From positions 1 through 22,214 of IMG/VR virus record IMGVR_UViG_3300018018_000094: DNA of 22,214 nucleotides. The stretch is one strand, 5' to 3'. Position 1 is the first letter of the stretch, and each line of letters begins with the position of its first letter. The DNA is from a virus. The notes beneath the pieces were generated by a model. It was not told where the DNA came from. It worked only from the letters and a program-made list of their open reading frames with translations, and ran no database searches. Below are positions 2,163 through 22,214 of this stretch, one piece after another. Both the position numbers and the translations under genes were made by a program.

Positions 2163-3119
2163 TTATTTTTTCAAAGTTTTAAGAGCTTCGTCAGTCCAAC
2201 CTTTTACTGGCCAGAACTTTTCAATCAGCCAGCTTACAGAGTGAATCTGCTTGTCCCATTTTCCGTTTGTAAAAAACTCCCAGACTCTCTTCTTTGTCCT
2301 ATCCACTTCTCGTCCGTGCTGTTCGTAAGGAAATCCGAAGTCTCCGCCTTGTGTCCTGAACATGTGGGCATACCAAGTTTTGTGATTCACCAAAACTCTT
2401 CCGCCAGACAGCCAAGTTTTGCAAGCCACTTCTAATCCCTGATTGCCCCAACTGCCGAAAGTTTCATCACAAAGATTAAGTTCCAGATACTTCTCTCTAG
2501 TACACATGAAAAATGAACCTTGCAAGCTCATCGTCTCTGTTAATCCTGTTTTTTCCACCTCTTCTCGATATCCTGGACGCTTAGTATATTCATTAAAGTA
2601 TTGGAAATGTGGCTCTGAATCAAAACAATAAGAGTTGCTCTGCGGTCTTTCCTTGCCGATCCACATCATCTTCCTGTGCAATCTGTGGGTTCTGCCGCAA
2701 TTTTCGCATTTCAGAGGAGTTGGTCCTTGATACTTTTTCCACCCGCACTTATAGCACTTCCAGTCAAACGCCCATAAGTTTCTCATTGTCGGAACCATTG
2801 TCACATTGTCTCCTGTCTCTCTGAATGCTTCTAGCATCTTGCGATCAAATCCCTGATCAAAAGAGCAGTGAGCGTCAATTTTTGCAACATACTTGCCTTT
2901 GCTTAACTTGCAAGCTAAATTCGTTGCCGCACGCTGTCCAATGCTTTGAGGGACATAAATAACATTAACTTTCTCATTCTGTATAAGCGGAGGCTCTGCC
3001 CATTTGCCATCTAGAACCGCAATCACTTCAGTCTCAGCTTCTGAATGCTGCAAAAGATCATCGATCGTTCGACCGAGGAACATCTCATTATTCGCTGGAA
3101 TTAAGACGCTTAGTTGCAT
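2163..3119 (-). CDS. GT2/GT27-like glycosyltransferase with inserted zinc ribbon
   Basis: GT-A fold transferase of 318 aa, using the start at 3119 (sequence MQLSVLIPANNE). An in-frame ATG lies 12 nt upstream at 3131, but the inner start matches paralogue N-termini and has GGAA 6 nt before it. The metal-binding motif is D-A-H (82-84, in KIDAHCSF), a DxH rather than DxD. Residues 224-256 read W-G-x3-L-E-x5-W-x2-G-G and end in H-M-F-R, a spacing very close to that of polypeptide GalNAc-transferases (GT27) as I recall them. Four cysteines as two C-x2-C pairs (122/125, 138/141) form a zinc-ribbon insertion not usual for the family. The C-terminal LIEKFWPVKGW is shared with the transferase at 10539-11402. 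Activity on a protein Ser/Thr is inferred, not shown. Confidence 0.85.
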   Translation of the reverse strand: MQLSVLIPANNEMFLGRTIDDLLQHSEAETEVIAVLDGKWAEPPLIQNEKVNVIYVPQSIGQRAATNLACKLSKGKYVAKIDAHCSFDQGFDRKMLEAFRETGDNVTMVPTMRNLWAFDWKCYKCGWKKYQGPTPLKCENCGRTHRLHRKMMWIGKERPQSNSYCFDSEPHFQYFNEYTKRPGYREEVEKTGLTETMSLQGSFFMCTREKYLELNLCDETFGSWGNQGLEVACKTWLSGGRVLVNHKTWYAHMFRTQGGDFGFPYEQHGREVDRTKKRVWEFFTNGKWDKQIHSVSWLIEKFWPVKGWTDEALKTLKK

Positions 3120-3907
3120 GTTGATTTCCATTTACTTATAACATCGTTAATCCTATCTCTAATCGGCGGAAGATAGCCTCTTCTTGCTCCGATAATTGTC
3201 GTAACTCTATTAGCTCTTTTTTCTGAAGAAATCTCGTTATCCAATTCCTGCTTCGTAAATACTTCAAACTTATGCCCTATCAGTTTGCCAATCTCAGCAG
3301 GAGAAATCGTCCCTTCATTTACCAAATTAAACGAACCAGTTTCATCATTCTTAATTAGCTCATACAACTTAGGAATAAAATCTTCAACGACTGTGGCTGA
3401 TTCCTGTGAATTAACCAGTTTCTTATAAGTCAAGAACTTGTTCAGGACATTGCGAGGATGCGAGACTTCCGAGAGAGGCAATCTCAGTCTGACAATCAAT
3501 GTGTTCGAATTTATCTCTCTAATCAATTTTTCAGCCATCAGTTTTGTCTCCGTATAAAAGCAAGCAGGCGAAGGTGTGGAATCTTCATATCTGACATCAT
3601 TCTCGTTTTGACTCCTAAAGATACAGGCTGAAGAGATGAATACATATTTTACATTCTGCGCTTTACAGACGAGAGCGATATTTCTAGCTCCGAGGATATT
3701 GTTAAACAGAGTCTTGTTTTTATTCTTCTCGCACCAGTCTATATTAGCCGAAGCTGCAAAATTGACCACAGCAGTAATGTCTGGATCCAAACGATCAATC
3801 ATGTTTATCTCGTTATTGTCAAAATCAACAGGTACGCCAATCTTCTTTAAGTAATTATAAAACAAACTCCCTAACCAACCACGTTTGCCCAATATGAGTA
3901 TTTTCAT
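3110..3907 (-). CDS. NAD(P)-dependent sugar-nucleotide reductase/epimerase, RmlD-like
   Basis: Extended short-chain dehydrogenase of 265 aa, close to the length of RmlD (dTDP-4-dehydrorhamnose reductase). Visible motifs are the Rossmann glycine loop GKRGWLG (7-13), NFAAS after the second beta-alpha unit (49-53), SSACIF (92-97) and the catalytic Y118-x3-K122 (YTETK). FNLVNEG (193-199) matches the segment lining the sugar site in RmlD-like proteins. It would reduce or epimerise a nucleotide-bound keto-sugar in the cytoplasm, feeding the neighbouring transferases. No companion RmlA, B or C is in the window, so the partner enzymes must come from elsewhere in the phage or from the host. It overlaps the previous gene by 4 nt and the next by about 10 nt. 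The exact substrate is unknown. Confidence 0.85.
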   Translation of the reverse strand: MKILILGKRGWLGSLFYNYLKKIGVPVDFDNNEINMIDRLDPDITAVVNFAASANIDWCEKNKNKTLFNNILGARNIALVCKAQNVKYVFISSACIFRSQNENDVRYEDSTPSPACFYTETKLMAEKLIREINSNTLIVRLRLPLSEVSHPRNVLNKFLTYKKLVNSQESATVVEDFIPKLYELIKNDETGSFNLVNEGTISPAEIGKLIGHKFEVFTKQELDNEISSEKRANRVTTIIGARRGYLPPIRDRINDVISKWKSTCN

Positions 3908-10551: not shown

Positions 10552-11402
10552 AAGCTCCTATCCTCTGGCCATCCTGGCACAGGCCAAAACTTTTCTATCA
10601 GCCAATGAAACTTGTGCACCATATTCGGCTCTTCGTTATTCATCCAATGTTTAGCTGACCAAGTGTTATTTCTTTCGGCATGATTATCTTTCTTAAGTCT
10701 TTTCTCAATCACATTTCCTCTCTGATAATAAATCTTGGTCTTCTTGAAATGGGCATACCAAGTCCTTTTGTCTACTTTAACCTCGCCTCCACCTAACCAG
10801 TATTTCAAACAGATCTCTACTGGCTCTTGAGCAAATATCCCGTAAGTCTCCCGTCTGTCATCCAAAAATCCAACACGCTCCATAAAATACTTACGATTCG
10901 CAAACCAGCAACTTCCCTGAAGCACCATCGTGTCATCTATCTCGCTTCCTTCTTTTCCTTCCCACTCCGCTGGAAAAATTCCTGTTCCATAATTGCTTGA
11001 CTGTGGAAATGAAAGATAAAGATAATCTCTGATAGGACGTGCTTCATTTCTTTTCCAATTTTCAACATCCAATGAATATCGCCTAGGAGTCATTAGCCAG
11101 TTCTCTTTGCAATCTTCTGAAAGTATCTTGTCAAATCCTTGCCCAAATATGCAATGGTCATCGCATTTCATCACAAACTTACCAGTAGCTATCTTCAATC
11201 CTTCGTTAATACCGCCTCTCATTCCTCTAGGTTTGTCTGGAAAAATATATCTTACTCTTTTGTCTTCTACCAATTTATCAGGCTTCTTGCCATCCACATG
11301 GACGATTATTTCAATGTCAGTTTCAGATTTCGCCAAAATATCCTCTATCGTCTTTGTCAAATAAACACAATTCAGATTAGGGATTATTACGGATAAGTTC
11401 AT
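10539..11402 (-). CDS. GT2 family glycosyltransferase (DxHC subgroup)
   Basis: A 287-aa GT-A enzyme starting MNLSVIIPNLN. The metal motif is D81-D82-H83 in KCDDHCIFGQGFDK, with GMRGG (60-64) before it. Later landmarks are LQGSCWF, an acidic QEPVEICLKYWLGGG segment and TWYAH, and the C-terminal LIEKFWPVPGW is nearly the same as in the 2163-3119 enzyme. Two consecutive ATGs occur (11405 and 11402); GAGG lies 3 nt before the first and 6 nt before the second, so 11402 is preferred. The start overlaps the end of the dehydrogenase gene by 26 nt. The substrate is unknown; a GT27-like relation is weaker here than in its paralogue. Confidence 0.87.
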   Translation of the reverse strand: MNLSVIIPNLNCVYLTKTIEDILAKSETDIEIIVHVDGKKPDKLVEDKRVRYIFPDKPRGMRGGINEGLKIATGKFVMKCDDHCIFGQGFDKILSEDCKENWLMTPRRYSLDVENWKRNEARPIRDYLYLSFPQSSNYGTGIFPAEWEGKEGSEIDDTMVLQGSCWFANRKYFMERVGFLDDRRETYGIFAQEPVEICLKYWLGGGEVKVDKRTWYAHFKKTKIYYQRGNVIEKRLKKDNHAERNNTWSAKHWMNNEEPNMVHKFHWLIEKFWPVPGWPEDRSLWKI

Positions 11403-12129
11403 CATTCACCTCTAAGAGCTTATTTGTTAACTGCGGATTATAACCAACTGATTCTGCCCACGCTGCCCAGCCGTAAACATCCTTCGGAATACATTTAGAG
11501 TTGAAGCCTCGCTTGTCTGGAAAGATGAAAGTATGCCAGAGATTGAACCTTGTATCATCTCCATAAACCGCATCTCTGATAGTATAATAGTCTACTCCAG
11601 CTTTCTCGCATGCATCGTACAGCTCCTGGCACTGTGCTATCTTGAAAGCAATAGCCCGGTTCTCACTCAACTTAATCACTTCCGCTTCATAGTTGGTCAC
11701 TTGCCTTATCGTGATGTTCGCATGATAAGCTGTCTGGTAAAGTTCTATAGCCTTTCGTCTGTTCTCTGGCCTGCCACCAAATATCAAAAATTGCCTCGCT
11801 TTTTGGTCAGTCATCGGGTGGTTCACAGTCTCGCCTAGATATTCTGGCTGGAACACTACATTCTTTCCGAGCTTCTCTAGCTTGTCGCAAGTCCCAGGCA
11901 TTACAGTGGATCTGATAATAATCAAAGGGCTATCACATTTCTTAACAACATCTTCAACTATAGAGCAATCCAACTTATTGTCTTTCAGTGGTGTCGGCAC
12001 ACATATAAATGAAATATCCACGAACTCCTCGCTTACATAATTTTGCGCAGGGTCGTGGATAAGAGAGTCAGGAAACAAAGTCTGCATTGCTTTGCCTACC
12101 CAGCCTAACCCATAGATTTTTGTAGTCAT
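11377..12129 (-). CDS. UDP-glucose/GDP-mannose dehydrogenase-like, short form
   Basis: A 250-aa homologue of nucleotide-sugar 6-dehydrogenases, which oxidise UDP-glucose to UDP-glucuronate (or GDP-mannose or UDP-HexNAc to the acids) with two NAD+. Motifs: glycine loop GLGWVG (7-12), FICVPTP (41-47), STVMPGT (74-80), QPEYLGE (94-100), EAEVIKLSEN (148-157) and the catalytic cysteine C213 in GFNSKCIPKD. The N-terminal Rossmann domain is compact, and the protein ends soon after the central helix, so the C-terminal UDP-sugar-binding domain of the usual 390-450-aa enzymes is missing. It begins 3 nt after the portal stop and opens the second glycan block. Activity with the missing domain is uncertain. 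Confidence 0.88.
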   Translation of the reverse strand: MTTKIYGLGWVGKAMQTLFPDSLIHDPAQNYVSEEFVDISFICVPTPLKDNKLDCSIVEDVVKKCDSPLIIIRSTVMPGTCDKLEKLGKNVVFQPEYLGETVNHPMTDQKARQFLIFGGRPENRRKAIELYQTAYHANITIRQVTNYEAEVIKLSENRAIAFKIAQCQELYDACEKAGVDYYTIRDAVYGDDTRFNLWHTFIFPDKRGFNSKCIPKDVYGWAAWAESVGYNPQLTNKLLEVNDELIRNNP

Positions 12130-12132
12130 AAC

Positions 12133-14334
12133 CTATTTGAATAAACTCTTCAAAAATAATCTAAGTGATTTAATTGAAAATGCTTCACTTGAAATACTGG
12201 ATTCAAACAATGTCTTGAGCTGTGATATAGTTTCTAAAGCCTTTGGGATAGCATCTTTATGATCTTCCCAACGCTTGACATCTCCTTGAAACTGATAATC
12301 AATTCCGTAACCACGCTTGTCATGACCGATGATATACTGATTAGATCGTCTGTCTCCTAAAACCATGTCTCGCTCTGCTTTCCACAAATTAGCCAAGTCT
12401 TGTATCGCTGCAGAATAACTATCAGGATCTCGTTTCATGTCAGCAAGTAAAAGATGATTGGTTAAATCATAACCATCGACATATTTTGAAACTAAATAAT
12501 AAGGAAACAATCTCGAACCTCCGTTCTTAACTCGCCACTTTTCAGAATCGTATTCTGGTGTCATTGCACAATACATCTCAAACTGAGCTAATACTTCTGG
12601 ATTAGAGCGTAACATATTGACCACTTCAACATACGTCATCTTACTTATGGGATTCACATTCAATCCCATACTTGCCAACTCTTGTGTCAATTTTATTTCC
12701 AAGCTCTGTGATTGCAGATTGACAGCCACAGGCGTTTTGATGACATAGCCAAGACCACTTTTAATATCCATAAAGATAAACGGCTGCGAGAAACCTCTGT
12801 CGTCTGCCCATACTTTATAGCCATTCTGTGTAAAGACTGCTTTCTGTAAAGATTTAGTGACTTCTTCTCCTTTTACACTTTTCTGCTCCTTGTAAGGTTT
12901 TTCACCACCAATTTCTTTAGGTTGTCCTTCTTCAGTTGGCTCTGAAGCCATCAAGCCTGTATAACCATTAGCGGTCAAAATCATCGGCTCGTCTGCCCAC
13001 TCACCATAAGGAGTTTCACCCATTTGTTGTCTGACTTCATTTAGTGTCAATGTGCCGTTTCTTAAAGCTCTATCATAGATAGTTGAAGCTTTATCAGGCT
13101 CAATGTTGTCTTTACCGATAAAAGCAAACTCTAAATCATCATAACCAAAATCTTTCCAGATAATTTCCTGATTGAATACTTGTGTAAACAAATCCAAGAT
13201 TGAACCATATCCTTTGCTCTCTGATAAGTCTTTCTGCACTTCAGATACGCTCTTGCTTCCTGTCGTGTCTGTAATGCCAATGTCTTCAGGCGACATTTCA
13301 AATCCAGCACAGCACATCTTACCGAGCCATAAAGTATACTCCATGAACTGCATATCACGATTATTCAGATCTTTGAGATTGATAATTTCAGATTTCTGTT
13401 TTGAAGCAAGTATTGCTGGACGATGGAATCTGCCTTCAATTTCTTGATAGAAGTATTCTTTCCAAGCCTCTAAATCACGCTGATTGATTTCTCCAATTAG
13501 GTTCAGAATAATCGGAGGAAAAGCTCCTTCTTCAAAATAAGCTCCATTAAAATTGTCTGAATTAAGTAAGTTTGCAACAACAGAAATAATACCTTCAAGA
13601 GGAGACAGCCCATAACCGAAGCCTTCTAACGATCCTTGCGGATGCATGTGAAAATGGATAAAATCCTTCTTCGGCCATGCAGCCACTATATCACCACTTT
13701 CAGGACCGCCATACTGCGAGTTGTTAAATATCTGAAGATATGATACAGGCAATTCACTCTCTTCGCCTTTAGTTGGCAGCGGAATAACTATATCTTGATT
13801 TCCGTACTGGTCGTAAACTGGGCGGATTGTCGCACTATCAACAAAATGCAATTCAGCAAGTTTGCCATCAGGATAACGAGTTTTTTCTATTGAAATAGCA
13901 TCTAAAACAAGAAGATCTTCAACCATCTTATCAAGCAATGTTCTGAATGTCTCATCGTTTTGATTTGGATGTTTTAAGAAATCTGTTATCTCTTTTATGC
14001 GTTTGTCTGAATTTATTGCATTTTTGCGTTTAACTTGGTCTGTCGGCTGAATAATCCACTGAGTTTTAGTAACTTTAGATTTTAGGCAGTTAATACAAAT
14101 CCTAGCCACATATACTGATAATGCAACTCTACGTAATGTATCATAAGCAATTCGTCCAGGTTTGGTAAGTCCTTTACGAATCGCCATTGCGTTGCGCTGT
14201 TTTTCATTTTCAAAAACAAGACCTCTCTGCCTATCAGGATCCTTCAATCCTTTCTGAATCCTATAAAAATCTATATCTTGCATACCTTTCGGAATCAAAA
14301 TAGACTTCGTCAACGTAGTTTCTTCTTCAGGCAT
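12133..14334 (-). CDS. Phage portal protein with C-terminal kinase-fold-like domain
   Basis: A 733-aa protein. Residues about 60-460 form an HK97/SPP1-type portal, the dodecameric ring at the capsid vertex through which DNA passes: FIHFHMHPQGSLEGFGYG (225-242), SPLEGIISVVANLL, the FEEGAFPPIILNL strand (268-280) and the long stem helices near 370-395 are typical. Residues about 460-500 are a charged linker. Residues 505-700 resemble a protein-kinase-like fold: VIKTP (531-535, Lys533), a Glu-rich helix (E546/E552), hinge YYLVSKYVDG (612-621), LGDRRSNQYI with D661 and N665, and GIDYQF with D679. Portals are usually 400-550 aa, so the extension is additional. The kinase-like reading comes from motif order and is not proven. 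No Shine-Dalgarno is seen; 31 nt separate it from the HTH gene. Confidence 0.9.
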   Translation of the reverse strand: MPEEETTLTKSILIPKGMQDIDFYRIQKGLKDPDRQRGLVFENEKQRNAMAIRKGLTKPGRIAYDTLRRVALSVYVARICINCLKSKVTKTQWIIQPTDQVKRKNAINSDKRIKEITDFLKHPNQNDETFRTLLDKMVEDLLVLDAISIEKTRYPDGKLAELHFVDSATIRPVYDQYGNQDIVIPLPTKGEESELPVSYLQIFNNSQYGGPESGDIVAAWPKKDFIHFHMHPQGSLEGFGYGLSPLEGIISVVANLLNSDNFNGAYFEEGAFPPIILNLIGEINQRDLEAWKEYFYQEIEGRFHRPAILASKQKSEIINLKDLNNRDMQFMEYTLWLGKMCCAGFEMSPEDIGITDTTGSKSVSEVQKDLSESKGYGSILDLFTQVFNQEIIWKDFGYDDLEFAFIGKDNIEPDKASTIYDRALRNGTLTLNEVRQQMGETPYGEWADEPMILTANGYTGLMASEPTEEGQPKEIGGEKPYKEQKSVKGEEVTKSLQKAVFTQNGYKVWADDRGFSQPFIFMDIKSGLGYVIKTPVAVNLQSQSLEIKLTQELASMGLNVNPISKMTYVEVVNMLRSNPEVLAQFEMYCAMTPEYDSEKWRVKNGGSRLFPYYLVSKYVDGYDLTNHLLLADMKRDPDSYSAAIQDLANLWKAERDMVLGDRRSNQYIIGHDKRGYGIDYQFQGDVKRWEDHKDAIPKALETISQLKTLFESSISSEAFSIKSLRLFLKSLFK

Positions 14335-15889: not shown

Positions 15890-16690
15890 TCATGCAGTAT
15901 CATTTTGTAGTTTCTTATCTTGCTTAATTATGTCATCCAAATTGGGATCATTGATAGAAAACGGCTGTCCCTTGCTATCAATGTAAATTCCTCCACCTTT
16001 TTGCGCTTCACGAGCTCTTGTAATTTTATCTACCTCTTCTCGCAAGTATTCAGCTTCATCAAGATTATTAATAGCCAACTGGATAAACAGCATATCCCAG
16101 ACCAACCTTTTTACTCCTTCTTGGGTCTCGCAAAAATCTATGTAAGTATATCCTTTCGCTTTGTTATTAGGCAGTTGCAGCCATTTCCGAAATCTTTCCT
16201 TTTCTTCTTCTACATTAACTTTACATATCTTACCAATAACTTCTGCTTGTTTCCTCAGATATTCTATGAACATATTCACAAACATCTCAAAGTCAAACCG
16301 CATCCGAGTCTGAAATACTCTGCTCTCTTTCGTATGATGACCTTTGTAACGAAACAACTCCGCTAAGAAAGAAGCGCTCTCTTTGCCTCTTTCAAACAAA
16401 TACATAGACAACACATTGTCCTTCTGGTCTTGATTCAACTTAGGATCAGCTAATGCCACAATGAGCTTCTGTTCATGCGTTCCTGTTCTGTCAAGTTTGA
16501 CAATCTTCTTATGACCTGTAAATGGATCTTTAACTTCCACTTTCTGGACAGGCGGCAAATTATACTTGTCTAACGTGAGTTTTGTCTTTTCTACCGATTC
16601 CTTCGGGGTCAATGTATTTGAGTCCAGGATCGTAAGTCCACTTGCCAATGAATCTTTTTCTATCGGCTTCAAAGTCTTCTTCTTTTTCAT
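15890..16690 (-). CDS. Hypothetical protein, 266 aa
   Basis: Not recognised. The Lys-rich N-terminus (MKKKKTLKPIEKD) is followed by a low-complexity segment and then, from about residue 75, a mostly helical domain (HEQKLIVALADPKLNQDQKD, then FDFEMFVNMFIEYLRKQAEVI) and a charged C-terminus. No membrane segment is seen. The start at 16690 is chosen because GGAG lies 5 nt before it; an ATG at 16711 has none. This start makes the gene overlap the upstream transferase-like gene out of phase by 131 nt, much more than any other junction here. The next in-frame Met would remove about 95 residues. A scaffold, adaptor or packaging-accessory role would fit the position but is not supported by motifs. 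Confidence 0.72.
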   Translation of the reverse strand: MKKKKTLKPIEKDSLASGLTILDSNTLTPKESVEKTKLTLDKYNLPPVQKVEVKDPFTGHKKIVKLDRTGTHEQKLIVALADPKLNQDQKDNVLSMYLFERGKESASFLAELFRYKGHHTKESRVFQTRMRFDFEMFVNMFIEYLRKQAEVIGKICKVNVEEEKERFRKWLQLPNNKAKGYTYIDFCETQEGVKRLVWDMLFIQLAINNLDEAEYLREEVDKITRAREAQKGGGIYIDSKGQPFSINDPNLDDIIKQDKKLQNDTA

Positions 16691-17456
16691 AATCGCTCCA
16701 AGGAAAATCAAATGGAAAGATAGGGATTCGTTGCGAAGTTATAGCTTCAAAACTTTTCTGTTTAATCTGCTGCCACAAATCAGCTTGTAAGAATACATGC
16801 GTATGATATTCTGGATCAAGAGTAATCATCTCAGCCACATAACGAGGCATTGCTGTTAGATTAAATTGCAGATCCCTTTCTTCTACTGGCATTGAATTGT
16901 TATACTTGTCAAAGTTTTCAGGCTCGATTATCGACCTTAAATCATAGCCAGAAATTACTTTTGCATCATCTGATCTATTCGCTCTATCTATCAAAACATC
17001 TATAGCACCTTCCTGTATCATTATCCAGGGATTGAAAACCATAATGAATTGAGAATCAGTTTCATCTAGAGCCACTCGTAGTCCTTCTATTAAATACTCA
17101 TTATAAGTTGCCTTTCTCCCAACTGGGATGTTCAAAACATTGCCGCGTTTTGTCCAGCCAATTAAGATGTTTGTAACAGATGTCGGATCTGCTAAGTCAT
17201 TTGACAAAGATTCTGGATGCGCAACAAAAATAACATACAAAGAATGTATGTTAGAATATAACCTGCTTAATGCAAGTCTCAACACCTCTCCATTAACCGG
17301 ATTCTTCGGTATGTCTGCCCAATATCCGAACAACGGAACGACGACTGTCACTTTTGTTTTAGCAGTGACACCAATGAATTCTTTCAAAGTCTTATCTAAA
17401 GGCTTTTCTTTTAAACTTTGAGATTTCTTTTTTCTGTCATAAATTCCTCTAGGCAT
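16560..17456 (-). CDS. GT-A-like protein with degenerate metal motif
   Basis: A 298-aa protein with a basic N-terminal extension (1-33, many Lys/Arg) followed by VTVVVPLFGYW (36-46), as at the start of GT2 enzymes. SQFIMVFNPWI (135-145) occupies the place where GT2 proteins carry their D-x-D strand end, but the acidic pair is replaced by N-P. LIDRANRSDDAKVISGYDLRS then follows as in GT-A folds. HVFLQADLWQQI and a Trp/Asp-rich C-terminus complete a transferase-sized domain. It may be an inactive or divergent transferase, or a sugar-binding subunit. The C-terminal 43 codons overlap the next gene in another frame. The upstream GT2 ends 14 nt before it. Confidence 0.72.
   Translation of the reverse strand: MPRGIYDRKKKSQSLKEKPLDKTLKEFIGVTAKTKVTVVVPLFGYWADIPKNPVNGEVLRLALSRLYSNIHSLYVIFVAHPESLSNDLADPTSVTNILIGWTKRGNVLNIPVGRKATYNEYLIEGLRVALDETDSQFIMVFNPWIMIQEGAIDVLIDRANRSDDAKVISGYDLRSIIEPENFDKYNNSMPVEERDLQFNLTAMPRYVAEMITLDPEYHTHVFLQADLWQQIKQKSFEAITSQRIPIFPFDFPWSDYEKEEDFEADRKRFIGKWTYDPGLKYIDPEGIGRKDKTHVRQV
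16696..16699 (-). promoter_or_regulatory. GGAG ribosome binding site deciding the 16690 start
   Basis: On the minus strand the sequence is TTGGAGCGATTATG, with GGAG 5 nt before ATG 16690, inside the coding end of the upstream gene. It supports genuine translation from within the long overlap. Confidence 0.6.
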
Positions 17457-17470
17457 ATATTTTTTGTTAA

Positions 17471-18292
17471 TTACGCACTTGGATTTTGTAATGTGCTCTT
17501 TATAGATTTCTTTTCATCATTGTAAGGATGCTGAAACTTTTCTTCTGTCGGCACTCCTCCCCATTTCTCAATGAAAGCCGCTCTATTCTTTTCAAACATC
17601 TCAGATGTAACTATTCGCCTGCCTCTCTCGCTTCCCACATTCTGAGTCATGCTCCCATAATGATAAAACATCGCTGTCGGCAAAAGAATAGCCAGAAGTC
17701 CAGCAAGCTGCATCCGATAATGATAATCATTGTCTTCAAAATAAGCAGGAGCGAACAACTCATCAAATTCTCCCACAATTTCCCAACAAGGTTTGTTTAT
17801 CATAATCATTGAAAAACAAGGATGCTCCGTTTCTTCCACGCTCTCTTTGTCCTTGGCGTTCAATGTGCTGATTAGAGATGGAATCAGATTGGCTGCTTTC
17901 ATTTCTCCATCAACAGGCATTCCTGTAACCATAGCCACATCACCTTTGTCAAATCTCTCAACGAGTCTCCAAATCGCTTCAGGATGCATGACTATGTCAT
18001 TATTGCAGACTAACCCAAAATCCATTTTATTCTCCCAAGCATACATCATTCCGAAGTTTACAGACCTTTGAAATCCCCATCTGTCACTATTCTTGTGATA
18101 ATGAAATAATTCGCTTTCTAATTTCGAAGCTTCCCTGCTAGTTTCGTCTGTGGAATTGTTATCAATCAAAAGAATATGAGAATCGATATTATGCACTTTC
18201 GCACGTATCATAGCTTCAAAGATAGAATCCAAGCAAGGACTTGTATATTTCTGCCAGAGATTGATAACTGGAACTATGATTTCAACTTTCAT
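17471..18292 (-). CDS. GT2 family glycosyltransferase
   Basis: A canonical 273-aa GT2 enzyme. VEIIVPVIN opens the Rossmann-like half, IDNNSTDE (43-50) binds the nucleotide, RWGFQRSVNFG (71-81) is the usual N-x-G region, LVCNNDI with N98-D99 is the D-x-D equivalent, and PAYFEDNDY (182-190) holds the E186-D187 pair of the acceptor/catalytic base site followed by HYRM. The pattern is rhamnosyl- or hexosyltransferase-like, but the sugar cannot be read. No membrane segment is present, so it acts in the cytoplasm on a soluble or peripheral acceptor. The start overlaps the zinc-ribbon gene stop by 4 nt. Confidence 0.92.
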   Translation of the reverse strand: MKVEIIVPVINLWQKYTSPCLDSIFEAMIRAKVHNIDSHILLIDNNSTDETSREASKLESELFHYHKNSDRWGFQRSVNFGMMYAWENKMDFGLVCNNDIVMHPEAIWRLVERFDKGDVAMVTGMPVDGEMKAANLIPSLISTLNAKDKESVEETEHPCFSMIMINKPCWEIVGEFDELFAPAYFEDNDYHYRMQLAGLLAILLPTAMFYHYGSMTQNVGSERGRRIVTSEMFEKNRAAFIEKWGGVPTEEKFQHPYNDEKKSIKSTLQNPSA

Positions 18293-18448: not shown

Positions 18449-19069
18449 TCAATAGCCTGTTATATGTTGAGCCAAATCTTCTTTCGTGACTCCAATAAAA
18501 TATCCTGCTTCTCTCATACGCAAAACATAATCGACATCTTCGCCGTTTCCTCCCTTAGTTAAGCAAGTTCCACGCTCATCAAACATTCCAACTTCCTGCA
18601 TTGCCGCCTTCGGAAGCATCCAGCCAACTCCTGGAACTTGATCCATTTCTCTGAACCATTCATCCATAATTCCACCTTTAAGAAAGCCATGAGCAGTATG
18701 ACGCCAAACGCCAAGTATGCCGATGTTGGGATGATGCTCGAATGTCTCAAACATCTTCTTGTGAAAGTCTTTGCTGTATTCTACATCATTGTCGGATATA
18801 AAAAGAAATGGAGCGCGAGACAGACCTAAAGCGTTATTCGTTGCATAGCTCCAACCTCTGTTCTCGGGAAGCAAGACGAGAAATGCGCGATACAGACATT
18901 TCATATCATCTAAGAATTCCCTAACTCCCTTTTCAGTCGAGCCGTTGTCTACGACAATGAATCGCTCGCATGCTTCCAATGCTCCAGAAGTGACCAATGA
19001 TGCCACTGTGCGTTTAAGATAGTCTAAACGATTCCAAGACCTTAAGATGATGTCAAACTTGTTTTCCAT
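18449..19069 (-). CDS. GT2 family glycosyltransferase, short
   Basis: A 206-aa GT2 protein. FIVVDNGST (37-45) binds the nucleotide, LLPENRGWSYATNNAL is the conserved N-R-G region, FISDNDVEY with D93-x-D95 is the metal motif, and GGNGEDVDYVLR (173-184) gives the E177-D178 acceptor-site pair. It is close to the minimum length of a complete catalytic domain and has no C-terminal extension. GGGA lies about 6 nt before the ATG. The start overlaps the end of the RGP-like gene by 17 nt. The sugar and acceptor are not predictable. Confidence 0.92.
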   Translation of the reverse strand: MENKFDIILRSWNRLDYLKRTVASLVTSGALEACERFIVVDNGSTEKGVREFLDDMKCLYRAFLVLLPENRGWSYATNNALGLSRAPFLFISDNDVEYSKDFHKKMFETFEHHPNIGILGVWRHTAHGFLKGGIMDEWFREMDQVPGVGWMLPKAAMQEVGMFDERGTCLTKGGNGEDVDYVLRMREAGYFIGVTKEDLAQHITGY

Positions 19070-20048
19070 ATTTGTCCCAAACCTTCACCCACCATTCCAT
19101 AGCGGGAATCATATTTTTAAACTGCGGACTTTTGCTAGATAAATTCTTAAAACATTCAACAAAAACTTTAAAAGACTTGTCGTATTGTTTATTTTTTATT
19201 TCATCATTTCTCAAAAATATCGCCATATCAACTCTTTCAATAAAACTTTCTTCCCATTTATACATAGCCTCTTCCGCTGCTGTGTCTGCTGCGATATCAA
19301 TCGTTGTGTCGTGATAAGTAATCGGCTGTCCATAACTCATTCCTTCATGCCTCTTGCGCATCAAGCGCTGGAAGATATATCCTCCCCAAATATCATCAAT
19401 CCTGCGAAACTTATCATCACCATACTCAAAATTCGGAATAAAGAAGAATCCTGGAACTGCTTCTCTCAACATGGCAAAGTTACCGCCAGAAAAAGGAATT
19501 GGCGCAAGGGCAGGATGTGAACTAGCATCCAAGACTTCAGTCGGTTCAGTCTTACTCCTGTCTTTGCCGTTAATATCCAAGACATTATTCCAAAGTCCCA
19601 TATTGGCAACAATCTTCCAATTGCGCATAAAATATGGATAGCCGCGAGAATAATAGCCAGTTCCTCTAAGAGGATTTTCCCAACCACCTGTTATTTTGCA
19701 TCCAAGATATTTCAGATGTTCCGCTACAAAACCTGACTGCACGATGCAATCGCTGTCCAATCCGATAATAACATCATAGCCTTCGCTATAAGCTAAAATA
19801 TGACCAAACACACGACAAGCAGCTTGATGGTGAAAGAACTTAGCAAACTCATCATAAAGATCTCCCAAGAATACTGCTTGGTCAAAGTAGTTATATCTCC
19901 GCCATTCAGCAGGCAAACTTTCTAATTCACCATCGCTATCATCCACAATAATCACATCAGCATTTCCAGCGACAGCTTCTCTCTGCAAAGAAGTTATCCA
20001 TTCTTCTGTCAGTTTAATGTGGCAAGGAATTACGATTGCGATTTTCAT
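19053..20048 (-). CDS. Reversibly glycosylated polypeptide / UDP-arabinopyranose mutase-like protein (GT75-like)
   Basis: A 331-aa GT-A protein whose motifs match plant RGP/UAM proteins: IIVDDSD (33-39), IIGLDSDC with D98-x-D100, SRGYPYFMR (134-142), NMGLWNNVLDIN (149-160), PIPFSGGNFAM (183-193) and DDIWGGYIF (218-226). In plant enzymes, which interconvert UDP-arabinopyranose and UDP-arabinofuranose while becoming self-glycosylated on arginine, the RGYPFSLR segment holds two arginines seven residues apart; here R135 and R142 keep that spacing. The C-terminus (about 265-331) is helical and diverges. Start 20048 gives a 4-nt ATGA overlap; the frame from 20057 adds three residues. It could be a mutase or a related transferase; the exact UDP-sugar is inferred. 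Confidence 0.82.
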   Translation of the reverse strand: MKIAIVIPCHIKLTEEWITSLQREAVAGNADVIIVDDSDGELESLPAEWRRYNYFDQAVFLGDLYDEFAKFFHHQAACRVFGHILAYSEGYDVIIGLDSDCIVQSGFVAEHLKYLGCKITGGWENPLRGTGYYSRGYPYFMRNWKIVANMGLWNNVLDINGKDRSKTEPTEVLDASSHPALAPIPFSGGNFAMLREAVPGFFFIPNFEYGDDKFRRIDDIWGGYIFQRLMRKRHEGMSYGQPITYHDTTIDIAADTAAEEAMYKWEESFIERVDMAIFLRNDEIKNKQYDKSFKVFVECFKNLSSKSPQFKNMIPAMEWWVKVWDKYGKQV

Positions 20049-21077: not shown

Positions 21078-22214
21078 TTAATGTTTATTACTGAAGACTC
21101 CGACCATCCTATCGTAATTGCTTCTCTGCTTTTCTTGTTCCTTAATCATTGTGATGTCTGCTTCTCTTTCAAACACGACCCGTTGCTCTGCTTTCTGTAA
21201 AGGAGGGGAATCTTTGATTGTCATAAGTGATGAAACAGGAAATAAAATCTTGCTACCCAATAGTTCTCTCACTTCGCTATAAGCAAACCACAGGGCCATC
21301 AAACTGTCTCCAGTGTGTCCATCTGGAAATGCTCGCATTTCATTAACCAGTTGTGCAGCTAACATGCTTGTCCTCGCATCTGTAAAATCAGACGGAATAA
21401 CAAGTTTCCCCAGCTCCATCATTACGGCTAAAGAATTAATCCCTATTTCCGGGTCGAATTTTTCTTTGCCGGTATTGTAAGACCTGACAGAAATACCTTC
21501 GTTTGCTAAATCCATTGTCAATGCCGCTTGATAACCGACGCTCTCTACTCTAATTGTCTGTATGTTGTGGTCTACCCATGCAGTTTTGACAACTTTGCGC
21601 TGCTCGTTGGGAGTAAACTTCCCTCTGTGTATTTGCCTGACGATGTAATCACCATCTTCAATTCCCTCATAACCATGACGCACAAGATCTAAATAAACTA
21701 AAGCGGTATCATCTGAAAATTCTTGCAAACTGATAGCTAAATCCATTCCTGCCGCGCTGACTTCAAGATAATTGTTAGCGTGTGGTTGATCTTGAAATCT
21801 CAAATGTTTTCCTTTTTTTAGTGCTTTTTCGATCCATTCATCTTTGATTGTCTGGTTTGGCCTGTCTGATGGGTTGCACTGGTACATTCTTGCAAAAACA
21901 TAAGGGTTGATTAATCGCTCAAGATAAAGGCGTGAATATGGATAGCGTTCAGGCCACAAAACGTGAGCTCCACTGTCCATGTCTTGCTTGTTAAGAATGT
22001 AAAATGAGTTTGCTTGCTCAAACCGTTCTTTGGGCTGGACGGAAATGTTCATCATTATGCTTCCCCATTTCTGCCACAAATCTTGATTTTCTGCTTCCTT
22101 GACAATTGCACCTCTTTTTTTTGCAACAACGAAACGAGGGTCATTTAAAAATCTAGCAACAATATCATCTTGGTGCCACGAATTTCCCAAGTAGATCAAA
22201 GTTCCGCCAGGAAC
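21078..22214 (-). CDS. terL: Terminase large subunit, C-terminal part (N-terminus outside window)
   Basis: The frame is open to the right edge (378 codons in window). The nearest apparent start at 22199 is only an internal TTG, because VPGGT precedes it in frame. Numbered from the edge, residues 1-20 (GGTLIYLGNSWHQDD) match the end of the ATPase domain. The RNase H-like nuclease domain follows, with acidic residues D158 in AAGMDLAIS, E224 in TIRVESVGYQA and D303 in GHTGDSLMALWFAYSE, the three expected metal ligands. The protein cuts and pumps DNA into proheads through the portal. The Walker A and B motifs lie outside. The C-terminal tail (about 340-378) is charged and helical. It is followed 10 nt later by the immunity-like gene, with no portal directly after it as is usual. 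Confidence 0.93.
   Translation of the reverse strand, partial: VPGGTLIYLGNSWHQDDIVARFLNDPRFVVAKKRGAIVKEAENQDLWQKWGSIMMNISVQPKERFEQANSFYILNKQDMDSGAHVLWPERYPYSRLYLERLINPYVFARMYQCNPSDRPNQTIKDEWIEKALKKGKHLRFQDQPHANNYLEVSAAGMDLAISLQEFSDDTALVYLDLVRHGYEGIEDGDYIVRQIHRGKFTPNEQRKVVKTAWVDHNIQTIRVESVGYQAALTMDLANEGISVRSYNTGKEKFDPEIGINSLAVMMELGKLVIPSDFTDARTSMLAAQLVNEMRAFPDGHTGDSLMALWFAYSEVRELLGSKILFPVSSLMTIKDSPPLQKAEQRVVFEREADITMIKEQEKQRSNYDRMVGVFSNKH

Follow-up and report, generated by a model that had tools for sequence, protein, structure and literature searches.

A distant GT75 family member, predicted to act as an NDP-pyranose mutase, in the late gene block of a phage

GT75 chemistry, which uses an arginine instead of a flavin, is known from plants and from two bacterial antibiotic pathways, and the family includes proteins that are inactive or have autoglycosylation as their sole activity. 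The best-described relatives of the protein studied here are MtdL (PDB 7yua and 7xpr–7xpu), a GT75 GDP-L-Fuc/GDP-L-Gal pyranose mutase, and the plant UAM/RGP proteins, which include rice UAM2 (8cid), OsUAM1 and AtRGP2. According to the available part of the report on MtdL (PMC9937993), D111 and H287 bind Mn, D110 contacts ribose O2, and R257 binds phosphate and sugar; the nucleophile is probably R159 and the base probably D260. Changes at D87, D109, R159, D195, Q229, R257 or D260 abolish MtdL activity, and MtdL D87 and AtRGP2 S91 are each essential in their own enzyme against the replacements tested. The same text describes inactive members of the family (rice UAM2 and AtRGP5), autoglycosylation of the conserved arginine by GT75 enzymes, and AtRGP2 with UDP-Glc, where autoglycosylation was the only activity.

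GT75-like proteins also occur in other phages: the uncultured huge phage LR756511, the Synechococcus phages Sf-CH8 and Sf-CH5, and BFVD entry A0A6J5N5Z7, annotated as an RGP fragment (this entry is known from a fold listing alone, and Sf-CH5 from a search listing alone). Full-text literature searches listed no paper that addresses what a phage GT75 does. In the available part of PMC12369002, a 4,6-dehydratase feeds a pyranose/furanose mutase in the formation of CDP-D-fucofuranose, a 6-deoxy-furanosyl donor, in Campylobacter HS:41. That mutase is FAD-dependent and of the UGM type, in contrast to the metal-dependent GT75 type proposed here. Phage arabinose and pentose modification of DNA is known and is tied to other genes (PMC6024577, PMC12838424); neither text contains a word starting with ‘mutase’ or ‘furanose’.

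The window analysed here is the 22,214-nt stretch of IMG/VR virus record IMGVR_UViG_3300018018_000094 (positions 1–22,214), and the GT75, glycosyltransferase, terminase, portal, RmlD-like and dehydrogenase-like (11377–12129) genes described in it, and the gene at 16560–17456, lie on the minus strand. At 19053–20048, where the sequence-only reading had placed an RGP/UDP-arabinopyranose mutase-like gene without naming a strand, the minus-strand frame is open throughout, begins with ATG at 20048 and encodes a 331-residue protein (P0001). A plus-strand reading of the same segment is rejected, as its frame is interrupted by stops. Every motif named in that reading is present in the minus-strand translation and in the order it gave: D98-S99-D100, R135-GYPYFM-R142 with both arginines in place, G151LWNN155, P185FSGGN190 and D218D-I-WGG223. 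The Pfam RGP profile PF03214 matches residues 30–327 with 63.6 bits (cut-off 23.8, E = 2.4e-17), covering profile positions 31–340 of 342, and phmmer against the PDB finds rice UAM2 (8cid) at E = 1.9e-10 and MtdL chains at 1.1e-7 to 2.8e-7. Judged by these scores, GT75 membership is beyond chance. NCBIfam and PHROGs searches of the protein gave no match of note. GT75 chains (E = 8e-29 to 2e-23) are the only convincing PDB matches of a profile made from 15 phage sequences, and RGP is matched by 14 of the 15 rows of alignment A4 at E ≤ 0.01.

The AlphaFold model of the protein, computed from a 17-sequence alignment, has a pLDDT of 89.6 and a pTM of 0.90. Seven GT75 entries take the top ranks in a Foldseek search with this model. 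VIA-align superposes it on MtdL with Z-scores of 30.7–31.4 (304–309 residues) and on rice UAM2 with 29.5, over 304–310 residues in all; across all seven GT75 entries (Z 29.5–31.4) the matched region covers the GT-A N-terminal part, the GT75-specific core and the C-terminal helices. The first non-GT75 fold, that of ordinary GT-A enzymes, follows at Z 13.7, in a listing from which the absence of a family does not exclude it. An ordinary GT2 enzyme as the sole explanation is rejected on this difference. Sequence identity to the characterised GT75 enzymes is about 17–19% (about 18% to MtdL, 19% to the plant proteins), and fold likeness in a predicted model by itself proves no function. Profile, fold and active-site residues together identify the window protein as a true, distant member of the GT75/RGP family, and the family relation proposed in the sequence-only reading is borne out by profile and by structure.

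Alignment to MtdL superimposes phage D98, S99 and D100 on D109, D110 and D111, and R135, D158, R216, D219 and H246 on R159, D195, R257, D260 and H287. The DSD motif (19749–19757) corresponds to the metal/nucleotide motif DDD, which is described as highly conserved in GT75 (PMC9937993, in part). S99 replaces its middle Asp, MtdL D110, and as the first and third Asp are retained we regard DSD as a variant of it. R135 (19644–19646) is also equivalent to rice UAM1 R158 and corresponds to the autoglycosylated arginine, the proposed nucleophile; R142 (19623–19625), the second arginine of the RGYPxxxR motif, is conserved across the phage relatives described below and absent from most other GT75 rows. 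D158 (19575–19577) is equivalent to AtRGP2 D182 as well, the R216-I-D-D219 segment (19392–19403) carries the counterparts of the phosphate- and sugar-binding arginine and the proposed general base, and H246 (19311–19313) that of the Mn-coordinating histidine. Equivalents of five activity-essential MtdL residues (D109, R159, D195, R257 and D260) are present, as are all three metal-site residues, D98, D100 and H246. Two catalytic residues of the phage protein are missing from rice UAM2, which has T and R at the positions of R216 and H246. As far as sequence comparison can tell, the Arg/Asp/metal site is intact and mutase is the most likely activity.

Other positions depart from the characterised enzymes. 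A76 occupies the position of MtdL D87 and AtRGP2 S91, where the phage relatives have Ser or Ala, and the Asp-Ser pair that precedes the conserved Arg in active plant enzymes (AtRGP2 D90-S91) is Q75-A76 here, with Asp at 75 only in relative L027. G188 and G189 stand at MtdL S228 and Q229; the first is also Gly in AtRGP2, which shares the SGxN motif with the phage protein where MtdL has NSQN, and the second (Q229A is inactive in MtdL) is I in the plant row and M in the other phage relatives that cover the site. If the stretch is aligned rightly, D39 is Asp, as in plants, at the MtdL N42 position. The phage also has no known link to GDP.

The window protein is one of 17 distinct GT75 sequences that form a phage-only clade; its relatives there are about 37–57% identical to it and were collected in four viral-contig scans (members: the window, L002, L007, L008, L016, L019, L020, L022, L023, L024, L026, L027, L054, L058, L059, L061 and the fragment L063). 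We dropped L018, L025, L017 and L021, which repeat L016, L024, L007 and L008, respectively (L018 and L025 encode the same GT75 proteins as L016 and L024), and L048–L053, L055–L057, L060 and L062 duplicate loci already collected. At the middle DXD position, all 16 clade members covering the site have Ser and all 20 rows outside the clade, two repeated pairs included, have Asp. Among close relatives the gene is under purifying selection (dN 0.117 and dS 1.53 between L002 and L007). In a 32-row tree built before L054–L063 were found, in which two sequences were each entered twice (L013/L031 and L015/L032), 12 clade members form a group with 100/100 support whose stem measures 2.4 changes per site. 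MtdL and the other GT75 proteins of bacteria and huge phages fall outside this group, and so, at some distance, does the plant row, which is long-branched and of unsure placement.

The two other phage proteins whose sequences were read, from LR756511 and Sf-CH8, keep the active-site Arg and Asp but lie on other branches of the tree and have DDD, not DSD. Sf-CH8 GT75 groups with MtdL (97/90 and 100/99), likewise on a long branch, and sits among phosphoheptose isomerase, heptose kinase, nucleotidyltransferase and dehydratase genes (L005, 1000–12585), a heptose-type cluster that suggests a heptofuranose donor in cyanophages. A further GT75 gene, on a 69-kb viral contig (L030, 5675–7660), carries an apparent intein, judged by eye, exactly inside the FPLC-GMN active-site motif; it begins CFLEKQL and ends VVKN before Cys, and the sequence was excluded from both the tree and the residue tables. 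A PF03214 profile search of genomes found eight of nine, missing G002, whose locus L022 does encode a relative at 43% identity. No cellular donor of the phage gene was found, because the genome-contig scan gave only three distant cellular GT75 proteins and the sampled phyla have GT75 in 7 of 199, 2 of 198 and 1 of 74 genomes (each count including the centre genome). With respect to the host, tblastn of the terminase large subunit (TerL) and portal against phage records gave only distant matches, to phages of many hosts.

The GT75 gene lies in a block between the terminase large subunit gene upstream (21078–22214; cut by the window edge), which starts the late block, and the portal gene downstream (12133–14334), in agreement with the phage late block of the sequence-only reading. 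It overlaps by 4 bases a GT-A glycosyltransferase gene (PF13712; 20045–20884) and by 17 bases a GT2 gene (18449–19069), both conserved neighbours in relatives, and the genes may be co-transcribed. Another GT2 (17471–18292), matching phrog_29879 ‘galactosyl transferase’ at E = 1.4e-25, is a candidate user of a furanosyl donor. PDB sequence searches gave nothing for this GT2 and nothing meaningful for the glycosyltransferase at 20045. The 14-base gap that follows (17457–17470) is the slot of an RmlB-like gene in most relatives and holds none here. The protein encoded at 16560–17456 recurs in the TerL–portal block of most relatives at 41–67% identity and matches no Pfam or PHROG family; it was modelled as a possible further sugar enzyme, and the model is too poor to use (mean pLDDT 45.9).

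The remainder of the window contains an RmlD-like short-chain dehydrogenase/reductase (SDR; 3110–3907), its only Epimerase-family match and a possible 4-ketoreductase. The segment 2163–11405 is dense in GT2-like, methyltransferase-like and uncharacterised paralogous genes (those at 3904, 5817 and 6476, for instance, are 36–41% alike). It is missing from the related record G001 and is read as the variable glycan part of the phage. The last protein, at 1–1725, is truncated by the window edge, and its end is a long serine-proline repeat of the SPSxSPS type.

Leaving insertions aside, 12 of the 17 clade members share the order TerL, PF13712-type glycosyltransferase, GT75; TerL is not beside GT75 in L024, L026 and L061, the L027 neighbourhood is unrelated, and L063 is cut. 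We observed an HNH-endonuclease-like gene (by eye) directly before GT75 in L002 (7570–8004), with a gene of equal length at that site in L007 and one of about 190 codons in L008. In L027 a TOD1/MUCI70-type glycosyltransferase gene (PF04765; 5315–5983) overlaps GT75 by 11 bases. Fourteen of the 17 members have an RmlB-like gene near GT75, the window, L027 and L063 being the exceptions; this count includes L002 and L007 copies towards the other contig end, which continues the block, an L016 copy read from its sister contig L018, and an L023 copy cut by the contig end. The gene directly precedes GT75 in L024, L026 and L061, overlapping it in the last two.

Thr-Asp-Glu and YxxxK are the catalytic motifs of dTDP-glucose 4,6-dehydratase; TDE is present in 9 and YxxxK in all 10 of the aligned neighbour SDRs, and the SDR of L027 is of another kind. 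With TIGR01181, the G001 and L008 copies reach 218.8 and 227.6 bits, below its cut-off of 365.1 but well over the 36–53 bits that they obtain with the CDP-glucose and GDP-mannose dehydratase models, and their best PDB matches are dTDP-glucose 4,6-dehydratases. By sequence the neighbour is RmlB-like but falls short of assignment as a TIGR01181 equivalog.

We propose that the GT75 gene probably encodes a divalent-metal-dependent NDP-pyranose mutase that would supply a furanosyl donor to the co-encoded GT2 enzymes. By analogy with MtdL, D100 and H246 would hold the metal on the diphosphate, and R135, deprotonated by D219, would attack C1 of the NDP-pyranose. The sugar ring would then open on the arginine adduct, and the C4 hydroxyl would re-attack C1 to give the NDP-furanose. 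The donor may be used by the GT2-type transferases between terminase and portal, and the product would be a glycan specified by the phage, with virion proteins as its most likely carriers. Ser for the middle Asp of DDD, G189 at the Q229 position, A76 at the D87/S91 position and the low identity to characterised enzymes may speak against mutase activity.

As to which sugar such a mutase would act on, the neighbouring genes favour a 6-deoxyhexose, as a candidate, over arabinose. Possibly, though this is a doubtful extension of the proposal, the clade forms a new GT75 specificity class of metal-dependent mutases for dTDP-6-deoxyhexoses (converting, for instance, dTDP-fucopyranose into dTDP-fucofuranose), supplied by the co-conserved RmlB-like dehydratase, in which the Asp-to-Ser change reflects loss of the ribose O2 contact. 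Since dTDP has no ribose 2′-OH, the contact of the replaced Asp, an invariant Ser would fit a dTDP-sugar. This argument is weakened by the wide variation of the middle DXD residue among other GT-A enzymes, some UDP-using ones having DSD, and the dTDP-6-deoxyhexose assignment by the many phages that have RmlB-like genes without GT75: 233 phage records match RmlB-like and three match GT75. RmlB leaves a keto group at C4 of its product, which needs a reductase before ring contraction. No C4-reductase was seen in the relatives, a difference from the Campylobacter system with which they share the pairing of 4,6-dehydratase and mutase; an RmlD-like gene is found only in the window. RmlC (PF00908) and nucleotidyltransferase (PF00483) gave no match in G000–G007 (the window and its seven related records) at E ≤ 0.001, with positive controls in 11 and 14 of 14 control genomes, respectively. 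These results argue against a complete phage 6-deoxyhexose pathway, and such a route would therefore need host enzymes.

A UDP-arabinopyranose mutase is an unlikely alternative, by which UDP-Glc would be converted to UDP-GlcA by a UDP-glucose dehydrogenase (UGD)-like enzyme, then by host steps to UDP-Xyl and UDP-Arap, and finally to UDP-Araf for arabinofuranose in the glycan. The spacing of R135 and R142, the SGxN motif and, with the alignment caveat given above, D39 are plant-like, but Q75-A76 takes the place of the plant D90-S91 pair and the clade does not join the plant row, itself unsurely placed. The sequence-only reading took the UGD-like gene of the window (11377–12129) as a hint of a pentofuranose. 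UDP-glucose 6-dehydrogenase has three domains, including a C-terminal UDP-binding domain; the 250-residue window protein, a truncated UDP-glucose/GDP-mannose dehydrogenase-like protein, matches only PF03721 and PF00984, the N-terminal and central domains, and no C-terminal UDP-binding domain was found in it or in its L024 counterpart, although a Cys-x-Pro-Lys-Asp type motif is kept. The L024 gene (8906–9718) encodes a 270-residue dehydrogenase in which, as in the window protein, the NAD domain, the central domain and the catalytic Cys are present; it directly follows and overlaps GT75, in L025 as well. The gene is confined to the window and G003/G004 (L024/L025) and is absent from G001, G002 and G005–G007. 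Neither UXS nor UXE was seen in the seven related phage records G001–G007 (28–77 kb, possibly fragments), where the RmlB-like gene is the only Epimerase-family match, and a close link to UXS/UXE is rejected on that basis; the pentofuranose hint is not supported. The arabinose reading is weak; it keeps some probability, given that the window is fragmentary and that the precursor could come from host enzymes.

It is also improbable that the protein only glycosylates, either as a self-glycosylating priming protein with RGP activity or as an ordinary GT-A enzyme, with no ring contraction. GT75 enzymes autoglycosylate the arginine equivalent to R135, AtRGP2 with UDP-Glc does nothing else (PMC9937993, in part), the gene sits among glycosyltransferases, and 3 of the 15 rows of alignment A4 match Glycos_transf_2 weakly; against this, the GT75-specific core is matched in full at more than twice the Z-score of ordinary GT-A folds, and the residues needed for the MtdL mutase reaction are mostly kept. 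A catalytically dead paralogue that partners the neighbouring transferases, as inactive rice UAM2 and AtRGP5 (PMC9937993, in part) and the DSD, G189 and A76 departures might suggest, is very unlikely given purifying selection and retention in all 17 clade members of the R257 and H287 equivalents that the inactive plant protein has lost.

A GT75 clade with a shifted nucleotide motif, lying beside terminase and 4,6-dehydratase genes in many contigs, suggests that phages make their own furanosyl donors. If the dTDP-6-deoxyhexose assignment holds, phages would encode furanose glycans without a flavin mutase. The phage protein is a small enzyme suited to direct study of GT75 nucleotide and sugar specificity, and furanoses carried by virions or by modified surfaces of the host might influence adsorption or defence.
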